Assembly (NCBI GenBank): GCA_944392335.1
Contig: CALXWJ010000082.1
Location: forward strand, 1 to 64,000
Length of the DNA: 64,000 bases
Reading direction: 5' to 3'
Origin: an uncultured Clostridia bacterium
Lineage (GTDB): Bacteria; Bacillota; Clostridia; UBA1381
In this document: in pieces, positions 1,887 to 31,648 of the stretch
Layout of the letters: the number at the start of each line of letters is the position of its first letter
Numbering within the stretch: the stretch's first letter is position 1
Notes under the pieces: generated by a model
What the model was told of the DNA's origin: nothing
What the model saw: only the letters and a program-made list of their open reading frames with translations
Databases searched by the model: none
Translations under genes and position numbers: made by a program

Positions 1887-2642
1887 TTACAGCAATTCTA
1901 ATTCTGTCCTAAAACTTTCATCGGGATCAGGCTTTTCTGTAAATACTCTATTTTTATTTTCAATTTTTTTAAATTCATTATAATATCTGATTCCGAATTC
2001 TCTTAAAGATTCGGAATTAAAATGCAGATTATCGGGTTTCGATTTCAATCCTGATGCCGATACAAACCGTACCATATTACATTCTTTTGATATATTTTTT
2101 AACGCCTCATTAATATATGTGTAATTTCTATATGAACACTGATCTCCATTTATAAGAAAATCTCCCAGTCCTCCCACCATAAAAGGTACATCCTCTAAAT
2201 CCTTTTCTTTTCTGAATGCATTAATTATCTTTTTTAATTTTTCTTCATAAAAAGGATATAAATCTTCCTTGCAATCGCTTTCTCCCTGATGCCACAGAAT
2301 TCCCGCAACCGTCGAGGTTCTTGATGCTAACCTTGTTTGATAAATTGCATTATCAAACAGCAATCCTCCTTCCCTCCATTGATCAAGGGAGGTTCCTCCG
2401 TCAGCACAAGGAATTAAACCCACTTGCGTACTATGCTCCTTTGAATACACATCAGCAAAGCTTTCCGCAAGATTTACTCCCGAAAATACACGATCGGGAT
2501 TTACCGGAATATACATATTCTGCCATCTTCCGTTTCTCAACACTTTAATATTTGGATTATCTATAGGTTTTACATCCGTTATTTCTCCTCTTCCAGCCAT
2601 GTTGGATTGTCCGATTAATAAAAAAGAATGAATCATAATCAT
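1887..2642 (-). CDS. SASA-domain carbohydrate esterase (SGNH hydrolase, CE6-like)
   Basis: A 251-residue cytoplasmic esterase predicted to remove acetyl groups from sialate or xylan-type sugars. The nucleophile block is GQSNMAGRG (Ser13), the second conserved block is WHQGESD (residues 117-123), and D204 with H207 (PDNLHF) complete the SGNH-type triad. These are the hallmarks of the SASA domain. There is no signal peptide. The open frame could begin with TTG at 2645, but AGGAG sits 6 nt before the ATG at 2642, so that start was taken. It lies downstream of a secreted protein gene on the same strand, separated by that gene's terminator, so it is probably transcribed separately. Substrate specificity is not resolved. 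Confidence 0.85.
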   Translation of the reverse strand: MIMIHSFLLIGQSNMAGRGEITDVKPIDNPNIKVLRNGRWQNMYIPVNPDRVFSGVNLAESFADVYSKEHSTQVGLIPCADGGTSLDQWREGGLLFDNAIYQTRLASRTSTVAGILWHQGESDCKEDLYPFYEEKLKKIINAFRKEKDLEDVPFMVGGLGDFLINGDQCSYRNYTYINEALKNISKECNMVRFVSASGLKSKPDNLHFNSESLREFGIRYYNEFKKIENKNRVFTEKPDPDESFRTELELL

Positions 2643-2660
2643 CAAAATCTCCTTTTTAGC

Positions 2661-2695
2661 TAAAAAGAAAGGAACAGATTAAATCTGTTCCTTTC
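2661..2695 (-). terminator. Rho-independent terminator after the secreted repeat protein
   Basis: A near-perfect palindrome at 2667-2695 (GAAAGGAACAGATT paired with AATCTGTTCCTTTC) is followed on the minus strand by TTTTTA. It lies 44 bp beyond the stop codon of the secreted protein gene and just before the ribosome site of the esterase gene. Confidence 0.9.
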
Positions 2696-2738: not shown

Positions 2739-4475
2739 TTATTTACCTAATAATGCTTGTTGAGCTTCTTCAAATCCTGTTTCAATAACTTCTGTTACAT
2801 ATTCATTGTTAGGTCCGAAATAGAATGATCCGCTACCCTGGAAAGCGTGTCCCGGATATACTACAGCAGGAACGCTCCAGTATGATACATTCTGACCATT
2901 TACAATAAACTTGTAGCCCTTAGCAATCAATGCATCGTGCAGGCAAGAATCCTGAATATTGTCACCTGATAAAGTAACCTTTAATACTCTGATACCATTA
3001 CCAACCTGAGGATTAGCTTCTGTTACTGAAGGAATAGCTTCAGCTGATGTTTCAGTTGAACGATAGATTCCTGTCGGACGTCCGTCTAAGTACTTCTCTT
3101 CATAGATTGTGTAAGGATATTCAGCTTCAGGCCAAGCAACTTTCCACTCAACTGTAGGATGAGCAACACCGCCTGTATATCTGAATACATATGGCAAATT
3201 AGTTGTCTTGTCTTCCAATACATTCTGTGTCATTGTGATTGTATCTTCATAACCTTCTTGAACTGTTGATACGCCCTTGCTAGGTGTTCCAACAGCAAAG
3301 TTGTTATTTGTGAAGATATTGTATCTGTCATAATACAATGCATTTGTATAATCGGTATATGTTTCTGTTGTTAAATCGTAATCATTTTCCTGACGTCTTA
3401 CATCATAATCAAATGATCCGCTTGTGTATACATTGTCAACACCGTCAAGAACATTCATATCATATGTAGCAACAACAGTTTCTCCAATTTTCTTTTGTCC
3501 TTCAGCTGGAGTTTTAATTGCTCTTCCATCCAATAGAACACCATTTACACACAATACCTGATAAATTCTGTAAGGATATTCTTTTTCATAACCTGCGGTT
3601 ACCCATTTAACATCCTGTGAATTTCTTGTCTTTTTAGCAATTACATCATCATAATATTGAGGATTAAATCCTCCTACATTGCTCTTCTTTGACATTTCGT
3701 CAAGCTTATCACCTAAAATCTGCATAGGAACAACTGTTTGTGTTTCGCCTGTATAATAGTTAGGACCTTCTAATTCTTCCCAAGCATATTGAGGAATAGC
3801 ATTCATAAATAAGTCATACTTCCAATCAGCTTCTTCACCATTCATAAATGCTTCTGTGAACTGACCGTTTGCATTTGTAACAGCATTATAATATTGATTA
3901 ATCAAGCTGTCAAGTTCGGTATAACCTACCGGAGCACCTGTTACTTGATTCTGTAATGCATTATATACATTATAATAGTTCATAACTTCTCCGTTAACAA
4001 CAACGAATCTGTCAAAACCAACTACAGGGAAAGAAACTTTAATATCTTCCTGTAATCCAGCATATCCAACAACAGTAGATGGCTTATAAGCACCGCCCTC
4101 TAAGCTTGAATATAATCTGTGATATACATCATATGGAGCTTTTGCTTCCCAGAAATCAGGTCTTAATTCTACAGCAGCATTTGCATAGTTTCCGGAATAT
4201 CTTGTTAAGCCGGTATCTTTGCCATCAAGAACTAATGTCTGAACTTCCTTGTGAGGATATTCTGCTTCATAAAAAGCGTGAACCCATTCAACAGTTGAAG
4301 CATAGCCATTAATAATGTTTTTGCCAACTTCAGGGCAGTAATAGATTTTACCGTATCTTCCCTGAGCATCAGCAATGTCATAGCCTATAAAGCTATCATT
4401 GTCGCATGCCAATGCACTTGCTGAGGAAATAACCATTAATCCAGCCAATGCACTTGCTAAAATCTTCTTAGTCAT
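2739..4475 (-). CDS. Secreted protein of unknown function with repeated WExEYPY motif
   Basis: A 578-residue protein that I do not recognise. Residues 1-23 form a signal peptide (MTKK, hydrophobic core, ending ASALA), so it is exported. The rest is acidic and unusually rich in Tyr, Asn and Val. An internal motif of about 30 residues, W-V-x3-Y/P-E-x-EYPY-x-x-Y-x6-DGxxTG, appears at residues 62-92, 289-318 and 441-471, with a weaker version at 104-130 (FWEAKAPYDVYHRLY). Between the repeats are segments such as FVVVNGEVMNYYNVYN and FIVNGQNVSYWSVP that may be a second repeated unit. There are no SLH, LPXTG or lipobox anchors. AGGAGG lies 8 nt before the ATG, and a strong promoter lies upstream, so it is likely abundant. 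It could be a surface or matrix protein; function is unknown. Confidence 0.8.
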   Translation of the reverse strand: MTKKILASALAGLMVISSASALACDNDSFIGYDIADAQGRYGKIYYCPEVGKNIINGYASTVEWVHAFYEAEYPHKEVQTLVLDGKDTGLTRYSGNYANAAVELRPDFWEAKAPYDVYHRLYSSLEGGAYKPSTVVGYAGLQEDIKVSFPVVGFDRFVVVNGEVMNYYNVYNALQNQVTGAPVGYTELDSLINQYYNAVTNANGQFTEAFMNGEEADWKYDLFMNAIPQYAWEELEGPNYYTGETQTVVPMQILGDKLDEMSKKSNVGGFNPQYYDDVIAKKTRNSQDVKWVTAGYEKEYPYRIYQVLCVNGVLLDGRAIKTPAEGQKKIGETVVATYDMNVLDGVDNVYTSGSFDYDVRRQENDYDLTTETYTDYTNALYYDRYNIFTNNNFAVGTPSKGVSTVQEGYEDTITMTQNVLEDKTTNLPYVFRYTGGVAHPTVEWKVAWPEAEYPYTIYEEKYLDGRPTGIYRSTETSAEAIPSVTEANPQVGNGIRVLKVTLSGDNIQDSCLHDALIAKGYKFIVNGQNVSYWSVPAVVYPGHAFQGSGSFYFGPNNEYVTEVIETGFEEAQQALLGK

Positions 4476-4530
4476 TACTTCATCCTCCTAAATTATTTAG
4501 ACTTAGATATTGTTTTATCAACTATGTTAT

Positions 4531-4559
4531 ATTTTAAACTGTTTTCCATTATTTGTCAA
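4531..4559 (-). promoter_or_regulatory. Strong sigma-A promoter of the secreted repeat protein gene
   Basis: On the minus strand TTGACA (4554-4559) and TAAAAT (4531-4536) are separated by exactly 17 bp. The predicted transcript starts about 45-50 nt before the start codon and includes an AGGAGG ribosome site. Confidence 0.85.
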
Positions 4560-12753: not shown

Positions 12754-15700
12754 TTATTCAGCAATAAATGTTAATACATCAACTGCGAAACCATCAACAA
12801 CCAATGCTAATGCAAAGTTTACAGCATCTTTGTTAGGTGTTTCACCGTCTTTTGATAAATCCCAAGGAATTATGTCACCGCTGTTAATTGTATTTGAGCT
12901 TGAGAATGATGACTTAACAATACTTGAATTTGTTCCAAGTGACAATCTTGAGTTGCTGCCGTATGCATAGTTATATTCATAAACTGCAGTATCTCCGTTG
13001 AACATGATGTCATATACACCGTCAGTTGATCTTTCATCATTTAAAGTATTTGTATACAATCCAGTATATTCTTCGTCTTCTTCACCTACAGTGCCGTTTG
13101 CCACTCTACCAACTGAATAGTAAGAATTTGCTTTACTCATTATAGGTCCGTATACGATTTGAATTGCTTCAGATTTACTTGTATCCCAAGCTTTATCCCA
13201 ATCTTCTGACAGGTCATCTTTATTAGGATATGATACAAATGAAGCAAGATAAGCGTCTTCATTACCTTCAACAATTGAGTTCTCTACCAAATCATCATAA
13301 TTTGAAGCACCTGACTTGTTAAAGTTAAAGATAATGTCAATCTGATCTGCATATCCATTAGAATCTGTCAAGAACATGAATACGTCACCCTTATTTAATG
13401 CCAATGCTTGTGTATCAATATCTGCTGAAGCAACAATTGTTGTTTCTTCACCCATGTACATTACAGGAATTTCATAAATTTCATCACCTGTATTTTCATC
13501 TACACCTGATGATGTAGCACCTGTAACAACCGCAAATCTTGAAGTTGCGTTATAAGCGCCTTCACCTGCAAGGATAAGAACCACAGGATATGTTCCGTCT
13601 GACAATCTGTCGCCGTAAGCATAAGCTGCATATGGTGTATCATCTACTAGAACATCTACAGTTGCAATGCTTAAGTCAGAGATTTCATAATCGTTATTAA
13701 AATATTCAATACCATCAAATATCTTTGTAGCAGAACTTAATTTCACGGAACCGATTGCACTGTTCTTTTCCTTATAGCTGTCTGTTATTATAACGTCACC
13801 CTCTTCAATATCAACCGAATCAGCAGCAGCTGTCAAGAATTCAATTGAGGTAAGGTTACCTGATGAAGATGAAACCTTATACTTGATTACTCTATCGTTT
13901 GCCGGTTTCTTTACTGTACCTGCATTATTACCTGTATATTCGTTATCATATACTCTTTCAAATACAGCTTCTTTTGTAGCTTCCTTATTGTTCTTAGCTA
14001 ATACGTCATCGTCAAGTTTTACTGTTTCACCATCTTGAAGTACTTCTGCTCTACCTGAATCAAATGTATAGGTCTTTGCAGTACCTTCTGATGTGAAGAG
14101 TGTTGCTCTATAGTTTTCTTCTGATGTTGAATAGATGAACTTATCAATTATAGCATATTTAGCATTAACTGTATCTATTTCATACTGATAAATTCTGCCA
14201 AAGTAATCAACATAAATTGTAAATTCATCTGAAAGCTTCATTTCATCTGAAGTAGGGAATTCAGTTACAAATTCGTACTCTGTTCCACCAATTGTTACGT
14301 ATTCTTCAGCGTCACTTCTTCCTGTCAATTTGCCTGTCTGAACATCTCTTGAAACATAAATGTCATAAACATTTGAGTTCTGGAATGTACCTGTTACATC
14401 ATAAGCAATTGAAAGAACATCATTCTGCTTTAATTCAGCAAGTGTAATTTCTTCACCATTGTAGTAGATGTGGTAAACTAAATCATCATTAGTTTCTGTA
14501 TCTAATGTGAGAGATGATGAAGCTGTTGATTCTTTAAATGTGATTTTTCCGTTTGATGTGCTTACAGAATCAACCCAAGCTGTTTCATAATATGAAACAT
14601 AGATTGAATCATAGTAACCATCTGTCTTATAAGTATCAACCAAATCAATTGTACCTACAGTGTTTGCAAGAACATATTTTGTAAAGTTATTAACGTTTGC
14701 TTCAACTTCATAACCGTTTACATACAATGTTATGTTAGCATCACCGTTTGAATCTTTTTGTAAGTTGTACTTTGTTGACTTTGAAGCAGCTTCTGTTGCA
14801 TAGAAGTATAAGTATGTAGGAACTTCACTAATGACAATGTTTTCATCAGAGTCTTCGAAATCTTCAGTATCAATTAAGCTGAAATCAAATGATGCAGTCT
14901 TATTCTTGCCTGAAGGCTCAAAGCTGATCAATACATAATCATCATATTCGTCAACCATAATAATTGCTGTAGCGTAAACGCCCTGATAATTAGCAGCATC
15001 TGTATCACCAACATATACAGGAGACAATTCTCTTGAGCTGTTTATAAGTTCATTGTAATCTGCTACTGTATCTGTATAGCTGAAGTCATCATTGTCATAC
15101 TTTTGTGACTTAGCAATACCGAATGCTACCTGATCTGCATTAAGACCTGTTCCTGACTTATTTGTTTTGGTTACATAACCTTCAACAAAGTAAGCGTCAA
15201 AGTTTTCTGTTAAGATTGTTTTGTAGTCGTTGTCGTTCTTACCGTCCATCTTAGAAAGAGTAGGAACTAATTGACCGTTTGGGCCATATTCCAAACCGGT
15301 ATTTTCAACTAAAGGTGTTCTTAAGAAGTTATAAACCAACTGTGCAACCTGTGCTCTTGTAACAGTTTCGTCAGCACCTAATTTAACACCGTCTGTTATA
15401 CCTTCTGAATTAGCAATTGAAAGATAACCGTTAGGATATCCGCCCATGAATTCTGCATATTCATTGTAGTTTAATGATGAAACAAGCATTTTAACAATTT
15501 GTGCATATGTAACATTAGCCTTAGGAGCAAATGTTCCGTCGCCCATACCGTTAATAAAGCCTACCTGTACACCGGCATTAACGTAACCGTTAGCCCATGC
15601 ACTGCTTTCATCCATATCGGTAAACTGAGTTGATCCTGACATACCTTCAGCGGACTCAGTCATGTTAAGAGCTGCAATAACAACTTTTGTTACTTCTGCT

Positions 15701-15909
15701 CTTGTAATTAAGTTATCAGGTAAGAAGGTGCCATCTTCATAACCATTGATAACATTCAATGCAACCAAAGTATTTACCGCAGTTGCATATGATGCTGTAT
15801 CCGGTACGTCTGACAAAACAACCTTAGCAGCAAAAGATGCCGGTACAAGGCTGCCTGCAATCGCCAATGAGATAACAGCAGAAATTACCTTTTTGAGATT
15901 CTTTTTCAT
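12754..15909 (-). CDS. S-layer protein with three N-terminal SLH domains
   Basis: A 1051-residue exported surface protein. Residues 1-28 are a signal peptide (MKKNLKK, hydrophobic core, ASFAA). Three S-layer homology repeats follow (about 32-75, 93-138 and 155-200), each with the typical pattern: YATAVNTLVALNVINGYEDG with ITRAEVTKV, then WANGYVNAGVQVGFINGMGDG with VTYAQIVKM, then ITDG with VTRAQVAQLVYNFL. SLH domains bind pyruvylated secondary cell-wall polymer. The remaining 850 residues are acidic, Ser/Thr/Asp/Tyr-rich and beta-predicted, with no catalytic domain I recognise, so a structural array subunit is likely. AGGAGG lies 9 nt before the ATG. Two strong promoters and a long leader support very high expression. 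Confidence 0.93.
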   Translation of the reverse strand: MKKNLKKVISAVISLAIAGSLVPASFAAKVVLSDVPDTASYATAVNTLVALNVINGYEDGTFLPDNLITRAEVTKVVIAALNMTESAEGMSGSTQFTDMDESSAWANGYVNAGVQVGFINGMGDGTFAPKANVTYAQIVKMLVSSLNYNEYAEFMGGYPNGYLSIANSEGITDGVKLGADETVTRAQVAQLVYNFLRTPLVENTGLEYGPNGQLVPTLSKMDGKNDNDYKTILTENFDAYFVEGYVTKTNKSGTGLNADQVAFGIAKSQKYDNDDFSYTDTVADYNELINSSRELSPVYVGDTDAANYQGVYATAIIMVDEYDDYVLISFEPSGKNKTASFDFSLIDTEDFEDSDENIVISEVPTYLYFYATEAASKSTKYNLQKDSNGDANITLYVNGYEVEANVNNFTKYVLANTVGTIDLVDTYKTDGYYDSIYVSYYETAWVDSVSTSNGKITFKESTASSSLTLDTETNDDLVYHIYYNGEEITLAELKQNDVLSIAYDVTGTFQNSNVYDIYVSRDVQTGKLTGRSDAEEYVTIGGTEYEFVTEFPTSDEMKLSDEFTIYVDYFGRIYQYEIDTVNAKYAIIDKFIYSTSEENYRATLFTSEGTAKTYTFDSGRAEVLQDGETVKLDDDVLAKNNKEATKEAVFERVYDNEYTGNNAGTVKKPANDRVIKYKVSSSSGNLTSIEFLTAAADSVDIEEGDVIITDSYKEKNSAIGSVKLSSATKIFDGIEYFNNDYEISDLSIATVDVLVDDTPYAAYAYGDRLSDGTYPVVLILAGEGAYNATSRFAVVTGATSSGVDENTGDEIYEIPVMYMGEETTIVASADIDTQALALNKGDVFMFLTDSNGYADQIDIIFNFNKSGASNYDDLVENSIVEGNEDAYLASFVSYPNKDDLSEDWDKAWDTSKSEAIQIVYGPIMSKANSYYSVGRVANGTVGEEDEEYTGLYTNTLNDERSTDGVYDIMFNGDTAVYEYNYAYGSNSRLSLGTNSSIVKSSFSSSNTINSGDIIPWDLSKDGETPNKDAVNFALALVVDGFAVDVLTFIAE

Positions 15910-28209: not shown

Positions 28210-28252
28210 ATTCCCTGCCCTAAAAAATTATTTGGGCAGGGAATATTTTTTT
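28210..28252 (+). terminator. Terminator between the flavoprotein and LCP genes
   Basis: ATTCCCTGCCC pairs with GGGCAGGGAAT (28210-28244), followed by seven T on the plus strand. The preceding 160 bp after the flavoprotein stop is AT-rich and shows no gene. On the minus side the T run is weak, so termination of the LCP transcript here is possible but less sure. Confidence 0.85.
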
Positions 28253-29798
28253 AATCAAGTGTTATAACTTCATCATCTTCAGAATCGGTTACAGCGTTAT
28301 TTGTATTTTCAGGTTCTTCCGTATCTTCTTTTTCATCCGGTATATTTACAGTCGGTTTCGGTGTTGAAACAATGACATCGGTATTTTCTTTTTCACTGTC
28401 TGTGTCATTATCGGTAATAACGTCACTGTTATCATAGTCATAATCCGAACTTTCTCTTGCATCCTCCTCATCTGCAACAGGAGTCTTTTCAGGTTCTTCT
28501 GACTTTTTAGGTGTAGGAGTTGCAGTATTCTTTTCTGTATCAGAGGTTTTTTTAGGTTCATTCTCTTTCTCATCATCATCCTTATCATCATTACTATTAT
28601 TATTTTTTGATGAGCTTTTCGGTGAAGAAGTTAAAACATTTTTTGTACCTTCTACATCCTCTATTGTAATACTTGTGGTAAGTCCCGTTGCCTCATAACC
28701 AAAACTTTCGGTTATCAGCTTTGCGGTTTCCTCCAAATCACAAATGAAATACCAGCCTGCACTTGTTCTTTTTGACTCTCCGGGCAAGCTGTACGAAGTT
28801 ATTGCATCACCTGAAATACCATTCAGATATTTACCGAATTTTATTATATCTCCCGCTGAGAAATTTGTTTTTATATTCTTTTTCAGCTGTGAGAAAATTG
28901 ACGGCAATTTTGCAATAAGGGTTATATTTACCTTTTGATCAATAACTGCCTTAATAAATTCCTGCTGTCTTTTAACTCTGCTTAAATCGCTTCCGTCTGA
29001 TGAACCGTCATTTGACTTTCTGTAACGCAGGAATTGCTGTACCTGATTTCCTGTCAATTCCTGTAATCCGGGTTCTAAATGTATATGAAGATCCTGTGCC
29101 GGATCGTCATAATTCATACCTTTTCCGTTTCCTTCAATATCCGGAACATCAAACTCAATTGGGCCTAAAATATCTGCAAGCTCATCTATTGCCGTAAAGC
29201 TGAATTCAACATAATAATGTATGGGAACAGAGGTTAAAGCGGTAACCGCTTTAACGCTTCCCATAGGGCCAATTAAGTTATTATCTTTATCATGCATTGC
29301 ATGAATTTCATTTATTTTTCTAATAACATTTCTGTCGGTAACCTTCATCTGTGTATCTCTCGGTATAGACATGACATTTGCTGTATTTTCCTTAAAATTA
29401 TAAGAAACAAGCATCATGGCATCTGTTCTTAAACCGTCATTGTCAACACCCAGCAAAAGTACATTTACTTTTCCTGCTTCCATATCTACCGGGATAAGTG
29501 CTCCTGTTTCATCTCCGCTGCCCCATCCCATTCCCATTGCCACAAGAAAAATAACTATTACAGCCAAAATAAGAAGCAATATAATATTTCTGATTCTTTT
29601 TTTAGCGGATTTTTTTGTTGTCTTTTTCTTTCCCTTTGTATTTGTTTTTGTCCCTTTTTTTGACTTGGGAGTAACAATGGTTGCATTTATGTATTGCTTA
29701 TCTTGGGAAGATCGCCTGACTATTTCAGGCACATCTATACTATCATATTTTGAACTTGTTTTTGTTTTTGCGGAATTTCTTCCTCTTGCTCTCTTCAA
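28251..29798 (-). CDS. LytR-CpsA-Psr (LCP) family ligase, paralogue 2
   Basis: A 515-residue type II membrane protein that probably transfers lipid-linked anionic polymers onto peptidoglycan. A basic cytoplasmic tail (1-70, with KGKKKTTKKSAKKR) precedes one membrane helix (about 71-92). The LCP domain (about 110-350) has NVLLLGVDNDGLRTDAMMLV, SIPRDTQ with the conserved Arg and Asp, and QFLRYRKSNDGSSDGSDLSR with the pyrophosphate-binding Arg residues. Residues 390-515 are a highly acidic, Ser/Thr/Pro/Lys tail, presumably outside the membrane. The start is TTG with GAGG 9 nt upstream; the only ATG nearby is followed at once by a stop. It is 20 bp behind its paralogue. Confidence 0.92.
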   Translation of the reverse strand: MKRARGRNSAKTKTSSKYDSIDVPEIVRRSSQDKQYINATIVTPKSKKGTKTNTKGKKKTTKKSAKKRIRNIILLLILAVIVIFLVAMGMGWGSGDETGALIPVDMEAGKVNVLLLGVDNDGLRTDAMMLVSYNFKENTANVMSIPRDTQMKVTDRNVIRKINEIHAMHDKDNNLIGPMGSVKAVTALTSVPIHYYVEFSFTAIDELADILGPIEFDVPDIEGNGKGMNYDDPAQDLHIHLEPGLQELTGNQVQQFLRYRKSNDGSSDGSDLSRVKRQQEFIKAVIDQKVNITLIAKLPSIFSQLKKNIKTNFSAGDIIKFGKYLNGISGDAITSYSLPGESKRTSAGWYFICDLEETAKLITESFGYEATGLTTSITIEDVEGTKNVLTSSPKSSSKNNNSNDDKDDDEKENEPKKTSDTEKNTATPTPKKSEEPEKTPVADEEDARESSDYDYDNSDVITDNDTDSEKENTDVIVSTPKPTVNIPDEKEDTEEPENTNNAVTDSEDDEVITLD

Positions 29799-29818
29799 TT
29801 TATCATACCTCGTTTAAC

Positions 29819-31648
29819 TTATTGATTTGCCTGCGGTCTTCCGCTTCCATTGCTCGTATTATTCTCACTATTTGAGTTGTTTTCACCAGACGGTGTGTTT
29901 ATGGGAGTAGGAGACGGCGTTGGAACAGGTGTTTTTACAATATTTTCATTTTCACTTGGATCCTTCACACCTGTATTAGAATTTCCGCCTGAAGAATCAA
30001 TTATTGTTCCCGGTTTTGTACCAAAGGAAGGCGCTGTTGACTGAACCGGCACTGTTACTTCATGCGATGGCGTCGGTTGTTCCGTTTCAGCCGATTGCGT
30101 CGGCTTTACTGTGCTCTCAGGCTCTTCAGTCCTTTTTGGAGTTGATGTCGATGTCGGTTTTTTTGTTGAGTCGGTTGTTTCTTTTGCTGATGAAGTAGGC
30201 TTTGATGTGTTTTTATCCGATGATGAAGCCGTTGAAGATGTTGTCTCTTTATTTGTATTGGTTTCATCGGTATCGTCAAACGTCAAATATTCTCCCGGTT
30301 TTTTATATGTTATCTTCGACGCATCGTATCCAAAAACCGTTTCAATTAACTCTTTTACTTCATTCATATCCGCGATCCAATATGATGCAGAATATTCGCT
30401 TCCGCTGTAGTCTCCCGGCAAGCTGTAGGTTGTAACATTATCCATGGATAATTCAAGTAAACTCGGGCCATATTTTGTCATATCGGAAAGTGTAAAATTT
30501 GTTTTTATATTCTCTGATAAAGTTTTATAAAGATTGGGCAGCTTTGTTATAATGCTTGCATTCATCTTTTGCTCTGCCAAAGCCTTTATAAAGTTCTGCT
30601 GCACTTCAACCCTTTTTATGTCGCCCTGCGGATATTGTCTGAATCGCACAAGCTGTTCCGCTTTATCCCCGTCAAGCAATTGATATCCGCTTGTAAGATG
30701 AATATAAAGATCCTGAGAAGAATCCTCATAATTCATATTTTGAGGAACATTAAAATAAACACCACCCAAGGCATCTATCGTTTCTCTGAATGCTTCAAAG
30801 CTGAATTCAACATAATAGTTTATAGGTATTCCGGTAAGTCTTGTTACTGCTTCGATCGAACCCTGCGGGCCTGCAATTTTTCCGTTCTTTGTTATTGCAT
30901 GAGCAGCATTTATTTTCTGGTATTTTGTTCCCACATACATTCTTGTATCCCTCGGTATGGACAGGATATTCATAATATGATCATCGGTATCATAAGAAGC
31001 AACCATAATTGTATCAGTTCTTAATCCTTCATTATCCACACCCAAAAGCAATACGTTTACTTTTCCCGTAACTTCATCAACAGGAGTCATGAAATCCTCA
31101 TTCGAATCACCGTAAAGCGATGATTTGTCAAAAAAACCGCTTAACCCAAAGGCCAAAAGCGAAAAACAAATAAATACAGCAAGAGAAATAGAGAAAATTA
31201 AAACTGTTTTTTTCTTTCCATCTAATTTTTTAAATCTTCCGCCTTTCGATACTGTTTTTTTATTTATTATATCTGTGTTTTCGTCTGTATCCGTCCGTAT
31301 TTCTTCTGTGATATCTCTATCGGCCGCTATATCATTGACATTTTCACTTTCCTCGCTGCTCATCGTTGAGTCATTTTCTTTGTGCGTTTCATGTGCTTCT
31401 TCGTCCGGCACATCACTGTTTTTACCTGTTTGAGCCTGAGCAGAAAGTATTTCCGGACCCTCCTGCAAATTTTCCTCATCCATTACTTTCCCATAATATT
31501 TCATTTGCAGGTCACGTTTTTCATCTTCATTTATATTATATTTATTATCATCTATAGTATTTTTTTCAGTTTCATCAGGCCTATTTTTACTCAATTGTCT
31601 TTTTGACACGGTGCTTCTAGAAAAATTCCCTTTTCTGGCTCTTTTCAC
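29819..31648 (-). CDS. LytR-CpsA-Psr (LCP) family ligase, paralogue 1
   Basis: A 609-residue paralogue of the following gene; both begin MKRAR. The cytoplasmic N-terminus is long and acidic (about 1-145), followed by a membrane helix (about 148-170) and the LCP domain (about 195-430) with VNVLLLGVDNEGLRTDTIMV, SIPRDTRM and QLVRFRQYPQGDIKR. The external tail (about 455-609) is Ser/Thr/Pro/Asn-rich with many TPSP- and SSA-type stretches. The start codon is GTG with AGGG upstream. First gene of a two-gene operon. Two LCP enzymes side by side may serve different wall polymers, including the pyruvylated polymer needed for SLH anchoring, which is inference. Confidence 0.92.
   Translation of the reverse strand: MKRARKGNFSRSTVSKRQLSKNRPDETEKNTIDDNKYNINEDEKRDLQMKYYGKVMDEENLQEGPEILSAQAQTGKNSDVPDEEAHETHKENDSTMSSEESENVNDIAADRDITEEIRTDTDENTDIINKKTVSKGGRFKKLDGKKKTVLIFSISLAVFICFSLLAFGLSGFFDKSSLYGDSNEDFMTPVDEVTGKVNVLLLGVDNEGLRTDTIMVASYDTDDHIMNILSIPRDTRMYVGTKYQKINAAHAITKNGKIAGPQGSIEAVTRLTGIPINYYVEFSFEAFRETIDALGGVYFNVPQNMNYEDSSQDLYIHLTSGYQLLDGDKAEQLVRFRQYPQGDIKRVEVQQNFIKALAEQKMNASIITKLPNLYKTLSENIKTNFTLSDMTKYGPSLLELSMDNVTTYSLPGDYSGSEYSASYWIADMNEVKELIETVFGYDASKITYKKPGEYLTFDDTDETNTNKETTSSTASSSDKNTSKPTSSAKETTDSTKKPTSTSTPKRTEEPESTVKPTQSAETEQPTPSHEVTVPVQSTAPSFGTKPGTIIDSSGGNSNTGVKDPSENENIVKTPVPTPSPTPINTPSGENNSNSENNTSNGSGRPQANQ

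Follow-up and report, generated by a model that had tools for sequence, protein, structure and literature searches.

An undescribed tyrosine-rich repeat protein of Clostridia, tied in its relatives to polysaccharide deacetylases, as a candidate surface polysaccharide-binding protein

Introduction

Bacterial cell surfaces carry proteins built of short repeats as well as enzymes that modify the polymers around them. Choline-binding or cell-wall-binding repeats (PF01473) are short beta repeats that are rich in aromatic residues and have a DG turn, and enzymes of the CE4 family deacetylate amino-sugar or xylan polymers outside the cell. Among the amino-sugar systems are those of IcaB and PgaB; in the accessible part of PMC7229062 the structure 4WCJ is given as IcaB, active on PNAG, and the canonical CE4 motif 2 appears there and in the accessible part of PMC13254593 as HxxxH. 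The latter text also describes PelADA of B. cereus, an exopolysaccharide deacetylase with an N-terminal carbohydrate-binding module, and novel domain acquisitions in Gram-positive icaB-like clades are reported in the portion of PMC7112194 available to us. In the accessible sections of the literature on ica and pga loci we found no repeat protein of the kind considered here.

We have analysed a window of 64,000 nucleotides from an uncultured Clostridia bacterium, for which an earlier note, made from the sequence, had pointed to a strongly expressed secreted protein with an undescribed repeat. We suggest, with a probability of roughly 0.42, that it is an abundant, acidic, Tyr-rich protein outside the cell which binds a surface polysaccharide of amino sugars, and that its partner deacetylase has been lost in the genus.

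Results

The gene, its signals and the elements next to it are as follows.

2739..4475, minus strand: ORF of the 578-aa repeat protein, putatively exported (ORF call)
4531..4559, minus strand: promoter-like TTGACA-17-TAAAAT, 11/12 consensus matches
4484..4489, minus strand: ribosome-binding site AGGAGG, read from the sequence
4407..4475, minus strand: signal peptide MTKKILASALAGLMVISSASALA, residues 1-23, recognised by eye, with an AxA site and then Cys24
2667..2695, minus strand: terminator hairpin, 13-bp stem then TTTTT (sequence, folding, conservation)
1887..2645, minus strand: next gene, SASA-type carbohydrate esterase PF03629 (Pfam), its link to the repeat protein uncertain

The signal peptide, consensus promoter, strong ribosome site and dedicated terminator of which the earlier note spoke were all recognised again. 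The promoter and AGGAGG are identical letter for letter between the window gene and that of a 93%-identical relative, and the terminator hairpin, which lies on an 87-nt stretch with a folding z of -6.3, is retained in the same relative with minor changes only. The promoter consensus alone is weak evidence of expression, because chance sites are common in this AT-rich DNA (28 promoter-like sites in the region against 19.0 +/- 4.4 in shuffles) and a perfect 12/12 match falls inside the 578-aa ORF itself.

A perfect 12-nt inverted repeat, CTAAGTCTAAAT / ATTTAGACTTAG, lies either side of the ORF at 2719-2730 and 4495-4506; it is the longest such match among the compared window ORFs, is the same in the 93% relative, and its length was reached in 3 of 2000 shuffles. 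Through it, the 5' UTR of the mRNA could base-pair with the 3' UTR just upstream of the ribosome site.

The absence of a wall anchor, also claimed before, agrees with our data, since the protein, which ends in VTEVIETGFEEAQQALLGK, has no C-terminal LPxTG with a hydrophobic tail and no SLH domain, and no Pfam family matched it at E up to 10. The ALA-Cys24 junction is compatible with a loose lipobox and also with a plain AxA site. Taken together with the PF03629 esterase that comes next in the window, and as a near-copy in G002, this lipobox-like cysteine might suggest an exported solute- or nutrient-binding protein (of plant glycans, for example), perhaps a lipoprotein, that has no relation to the coat of the cell itself and has the esterase as its partner. 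We regard such a role as highly unlikely: Cys24 is not conserved (a Cys right after the AxA site is found in 3 of the 22 family members only, G000, G002 and G019), a strong terminator separates the repeat gene from the esterase, a signal peptide is not visible in the latter, and an esterase neighbours the gene in just two of the 22 loci, both of one genus. On the grounds of the terminator, the signal peptide and these two loci, the esterase was rejected as functional partner in the main reading. Its position in the window is that of the deacetylase in the linked relatives described below.

The claim of high expression found independent support in codon adaptation measured against ribosomal-protein genes of the same genome, for which 28 ORFs of a ribosomal-protein-rich stretch (L161) served as the reference. 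The repeat-protein ORF reached 0.816, the highest value among the 38 window ORFs compared, each 150 aa or longer, and it equals or tops the reference ORFs, whose own range is 0.63-0.81. Because it stands at the top of the 38, on par with or above the ribosomal-protein references, we consider high expression of the window protein to be well supported by its codon usage. The effective codon number is below the mean of the neighbours in 17 of the 22 family loci, the five exceptions being G301, G420, G047 and both fused forms, in a comparison that is a weak test because some loci have one or few neighbours. Second in codon adaptation in the window (0.802) is a 1051-aa SLH-domain protein at 12754-15909, likely an S-layer protein.

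With 9.0% of its residues, tyrosine is more frequent in the window protein than in any other of the 38 ORFs, and all 22 members are acidic (pI 4.3-6.0). The repeats are arranged within the protein in the following way.

4338..4391, minus strand: possible degenerate N-terminal copy, residues 29-46 (alignments by eye; missed by the repeat profile)
4212..4289, minus strand: repeat R1 core, residues 63-88 (repeat profile, E 8e-14)
4110..4154, minus strand: degenerate repeat, residues 108-122 (repeat profile, E 6e-6)
3528..3608, minus strand: repeat R2 core, residues 290-316 (repeat profile, E 7e-16)
3204..3527, minus strand: insertion within the R2 unit, about residues 317-424 (alignment; shorter relatives are without it)
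3156..3197, minus strand: conserved linker LPYVFRYTGGVAHP ending the R2 unit, residues 427-440 (alignments)
3069..3149, minus strand: repeat R3 core, residues 443-469 (repeat profile)

The repeat profile was built by iteration and found the corresponding positions in the relatives, as well as the degenerate copy after R1; the copies are weakest in G249, G289 and G304. Three copies with one or two degenerate ones correspond to the three to four counted in the earlier note. Pairwise scores were 65 for R1/R2, 81 for R1/R3 and 57 for R2/R3, against means of 23-26 (sd 4-5, maxima 42-45) in 200 shuffles each, and the strict motif occurs three times in the window protein as compared with a mean of 0.0012 per shuffle (5000 shuffles) and zero times among the 46 other window ORFs. 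The shorter relatives give a unit consensus W-x4-YE-x2-YP(Y/H)-x2-Y-x2-L-x3-G, followed by the linker RYTGGxAxP, with a unit length of about 45 aa; the second unit of the window protein has about 105 additional residues. W109 is invariant across all 22 sequences, and an N-terminal WxFxGYDTT...Y.K.YNE stretch of many relatives looks like a further degenerate copy.

AlphaFold, given the unit 436-480 with its own copies from the window protein and one relative as input, predicted a three-stranded beta meander (strands 7-14, 21-28 and 31-40) with pLDDT 79, and a full-length model from the window protein and one 93% relative (pLDDT 27) was discarded. Neither Foldseek (best E 0.51, HrpA) nor VIA (best Z 3.4) gave the 45-residue unit a clear structural relative; the matches were generic small beta sheets from which no family could be assigned, and a fold may have been missed. 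Pfam at E 0.01 detected nothing in the 22 members except PF01522 in the two fused forms, the repeat part remained unmatched by PHROGs (all 22 members) and by NCBIfam (the window protein and 7 others), and no PDB chain matched it at the thresholds used. The statement that the motif matches no familiar domain has thus held at these thresholds, and no named family can be put to it, because neither the database nor the structural searches gave a clear match.

The repeat-protein gene is present in its own genome in a single copy. The alignment profile matched in 6 of the 70 genomes of the taxonomic family, in 9 of 95 of the order (one match spurious), in 19 of 391 of the class (3 spurious) and, in a phylum sample of 398, in the own genome alone plus one spurious match. 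The real family loci number 22, namely 8 from the initial search and 14 more from the class search. Left out of the counts were G070, G140, G142, G171 and G249:C5, which matched only the first 16-117 positions of the profile, mostly the signal peptide, at E 7.9e-5 or weaker and in proteins unrelated by sight, as well as G809 and a 50-aa frame of G088. G389, with two matching repeat units only, is not among the 22; there the two units stand in tandem towards the C-terminus of another protein, 297 aa long, that begins like a lipoprotein (L164:5702-6595), whose gene adjoins ORFs resembling, by eye, RNA polymerase beta/beta' genes. The only named relative is a protein of an uncultured Firmicutes bacterium (best segment 92% identical), no relatives were found in viral contigs, and a text search of the open-licence literature found no description of the repeat family. 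It may overlap with the novel domain acquisitions of the icaB-like clades as far as the accessible part of PMC7112194 presents them.

In 9 of the 22 loci the repeat gene is followed on its own strand, after a gap of 50-408 nt, by the gene of a polysaccharide deacetylase (G019, G005, G047, G050, G081, G067, G264, G110 and G284), five of the nine being assigned to PF01522 by Pfam and the remainder via a profile of the partners. In two further genomes, G249 and G289, the repeat protein and the deacetylase are fused into one ORF of 511 and 515 residues, in which the repeats directly precede the C-terminal catalytic domain, and both have the same genes on their flanks. These natural fusions are located at L066:5960-7495 and L068:6165-7712, and their deacetylase part is IcaB/PgaB-like. 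The 11 linked or fused loci span five taxonomic families. No deacetylase neighbours the gene in the 11 others (G000, G002, G437, G301, G163, G269, G420, G239, G403, G261 and G304), where the contigs of G301 and G163 stop soon after the repeat gene. Since these unlinked genomes have just 2-9 PF01522 matches each among all their genes, chance is unlikely as the cause of the linkage; G269 and G304 have partner-like enzymes elsewhere in the genome (158 and 151 bits). From our analysis, the repeat family accompanies an enzyme of known type and is itself an accessory family so far undescribed.

The pattern of linkage has to be weighed against the possibility that we deal with a self-assembling, S-layer-like surface or sheath protein which has no specific polysaccharide ligand, the deacetylase merely remodelling the anchoring wall polymer. 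Such a protein could well be acidic, tyrosine-rich and beta-type, with codon adaptation on par with the SLH protein of the window (0.816 vs 0.802) and with no deacetylase at half of its loci. However, neither SLH nor another anchor domain was found, a lattice protein would not usually be fused to a deacetylase, as the repeats are in two species, and the spread is very patchy (6/70 genomes of the taxonomic family), so that we hold this explanation to be rather unlikely.

The catalytic Asp-Asp and H-x4-H are kept in all 11 linked deacetylases, Asp-Asp reading TADDG in G019 and TVDDG in G050. In a HMMER alignment IcaB 4WCJ has the same H-x4-H spacing as the partners, longer than HxxxH, and 4wcj is the best PDB match of one partner (E 5.7e-18). 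The partner enzyme may work like a PNAG-type deacetylase. All 5 partners tested of the 11 remained under the IcaB and PgaB equivalog cut-offs of NCBIfam, with best scores of 97.1 bits for PgaB (cut-off 321.9) and 83.2 bits for IcaB (cut-off 248.35), and the PgaC/IcaA synthase model TIGR03937 was above its cut-off in none of the 22 genomes, 21 of which have weaker glycosyltransferase matches to it. Judged by these PgaC/IcaA and IcaB/PgaB scores, the loci do not qualify as canonical PNAG loci.

In the own genome, G000, which is 99.5% complete, a partner-type deacetylase was not found, the four PF01522 proteins present there scoring 33.5-39.3 bits on the partner profile versus 300-374 for the partners. 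A deacetylase relic at the window locus was rejected, as a tblastn search of the window with the partner deacetylases had no match below E 0.19; the two fused proteins, searched in the same way, matched the repeat ORF only. These data bear on a further explanation, according to which the repeat protein would be a partner or regulator of the deacetylase (a scaffold or a substrate-presenting subunit), kept for another enzyme after the loss of CE4. Adjacency and fusion, with the repeats right before the catalytic domain, are what one would expect of such a subunit, but it persists in the window genome where no partner-type enzyme is found, and codon bias above the mean of the neighbours in 17/22 loci exceeds the need of a rare-enzyme subunit; we consider the explanation quite improbable.

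The family tree has linked loci on both sides of its midpoint root, and G000 and G002 cluster, with support of 99/97, with G019, which is linked and, among the divergent relatives, stands closest to the window protein; the deep forks are weak (76/71) and there are three long branches. From these two features of the tree we infer, as the most economical account, that the window's genus lost the deacetylase. In a tree of partner versus other deacetylases, several forks of which are weak, the partners do not form one clade (3 changes), and the partner-like enzymes of G269 and G304 fall among them.

Seven of the 22 loci have an XRE-type gene in divergent orientation upstream, assigned by Pfam for L021, L020 and L060 and by likeness for the other four. 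A LytTR regulator is found upstream in G403, G261 and G269 and downstream of the deacetylase in G067; in these LytTR loci (L022, L067, L069 and L063) the divergent XRE gene is absent, and three of the LytTR genes are directly upstream of the repeat gene. In G163 a regulator-like gene upstream has a Pfam match just under the cut-off, and no regulator adjoining the repeat gene was found at the window locus. Elsewhere in the window, at 28251-31648, there are two adjacent proteins, possible wall-polymer ligases, which we take to resemble those of the LytR-CpsA-Psr type.

Discussion

That the protein belongs to the sugar coat of the cell is suggested by its relatives, in which it adjoins a deacetylase or is fused to it. 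According to the polysaccharide-binding reading that we prefer, the window protein would be an abundant exported structural or matrix protein built from aromatic-rich three-stranded beta repeats, and these may bind, via their aromatic strands, an amino-sugar polysaccharide of the cell surface that is N-acetylated or has been partly de-N-acetylated. Ancestrally, it would have been paired with a secreted IcaB/PgaB-like CE4 deacetylase modifying the same polysaccharide, which once deacetylated would carry positive charges that the acidic repeat protein could hold on to. The genus of the window would have lost the deacetylase gene and retained the repeat protein, and in the window's species a different enzyme may act on the polymer, or none at all. 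The repeats, the single copy, the codon bias, the linkage and fusion in the relatives and the lack of a partner-type deacetylase in the own genome are observations; we infer the export, the binding, the identity of the polymer and the order of loss.

In favour of binding to an amino-sugar polymer we have counted the linkage, the fusion, the catalytic motifs kept by the partners and their likeness to IcaB 4WCJ, the place of the linked loci and of G019 in the family tree, the codon adaptation, the tyrosine content, the acidity, the beta-meander model and the precedent of PelADA. Counted against it were the 11 of 22 loci that are unlinked, the window among them, the PF01522 proteins of the own genome, which are not of the partner type, the lack of a PgaC/IcaA above cut-off, and the failure of the linked deacetylases to form a single clean clade. 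Both fusions are without codon bias, so that their repeats may have another task.

We may even speculate, as an unlikely extension, that these exported matrix proteins form a new family and that their tandem, three-stranded repeat represents a new carbohydrate-binding module, directed at a de-N-acetylated exopolysaccharide that does not come from a canonical PNAG synthase. The family would occur in Clostridia together with a CE4 deacetylase of its own and with XRE or LytTR regulators nearby, and where the enzyme has been lost the repeat protein would remain as a stand-alone abundant coat protein. The repeat is, in any case, a testable candidate for such a module. The surface polysaccharides of uncultured Clostridia are largely undefined, and a protein that seems abundant and exported, and that adjacency and fusion tie to a deacetylase, offers a handle on one of them. 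The approach applied here also demonstrates that a codon-bias test can single out, from raw sequence, a protein without a known family that is probably exported and among the most strongly expressed.

Comparison with known systems

With the SLH-type S-layer proteins the window protein shares the signal peptide, the acidity and the very high codon adaptation, and it differs from them in having no SLH domain. Compared with the PF01473 repeats, its unit is longer (about 45 aa) and has another motif, and none of the 22 members gave a Pfam match there. The partner enzyme of the relatives has in common with the IcaB/PgaB CE4 deacetylases PF01522, the Asp-Asp and the H-x4-H of IcaB 4WCJ; it differs from those systems in that the tested partners (5/11) are far under the equivalog cut-offs and the PgaC/IcaA synthase is not above its own. 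PelADA, as presented in the accessible text of PMC13254593, has an alpha/beta/alpha module, whereas the repeat unit is predicted to be all-beta, and the repeat region is, unlike that module, a separate protein in 20 of the 22 loci; the likeness to PelADA lies in the fused forms G249 and G289, in which, as there, a non-catalytic N-terminal region is joined to a deacetylase.
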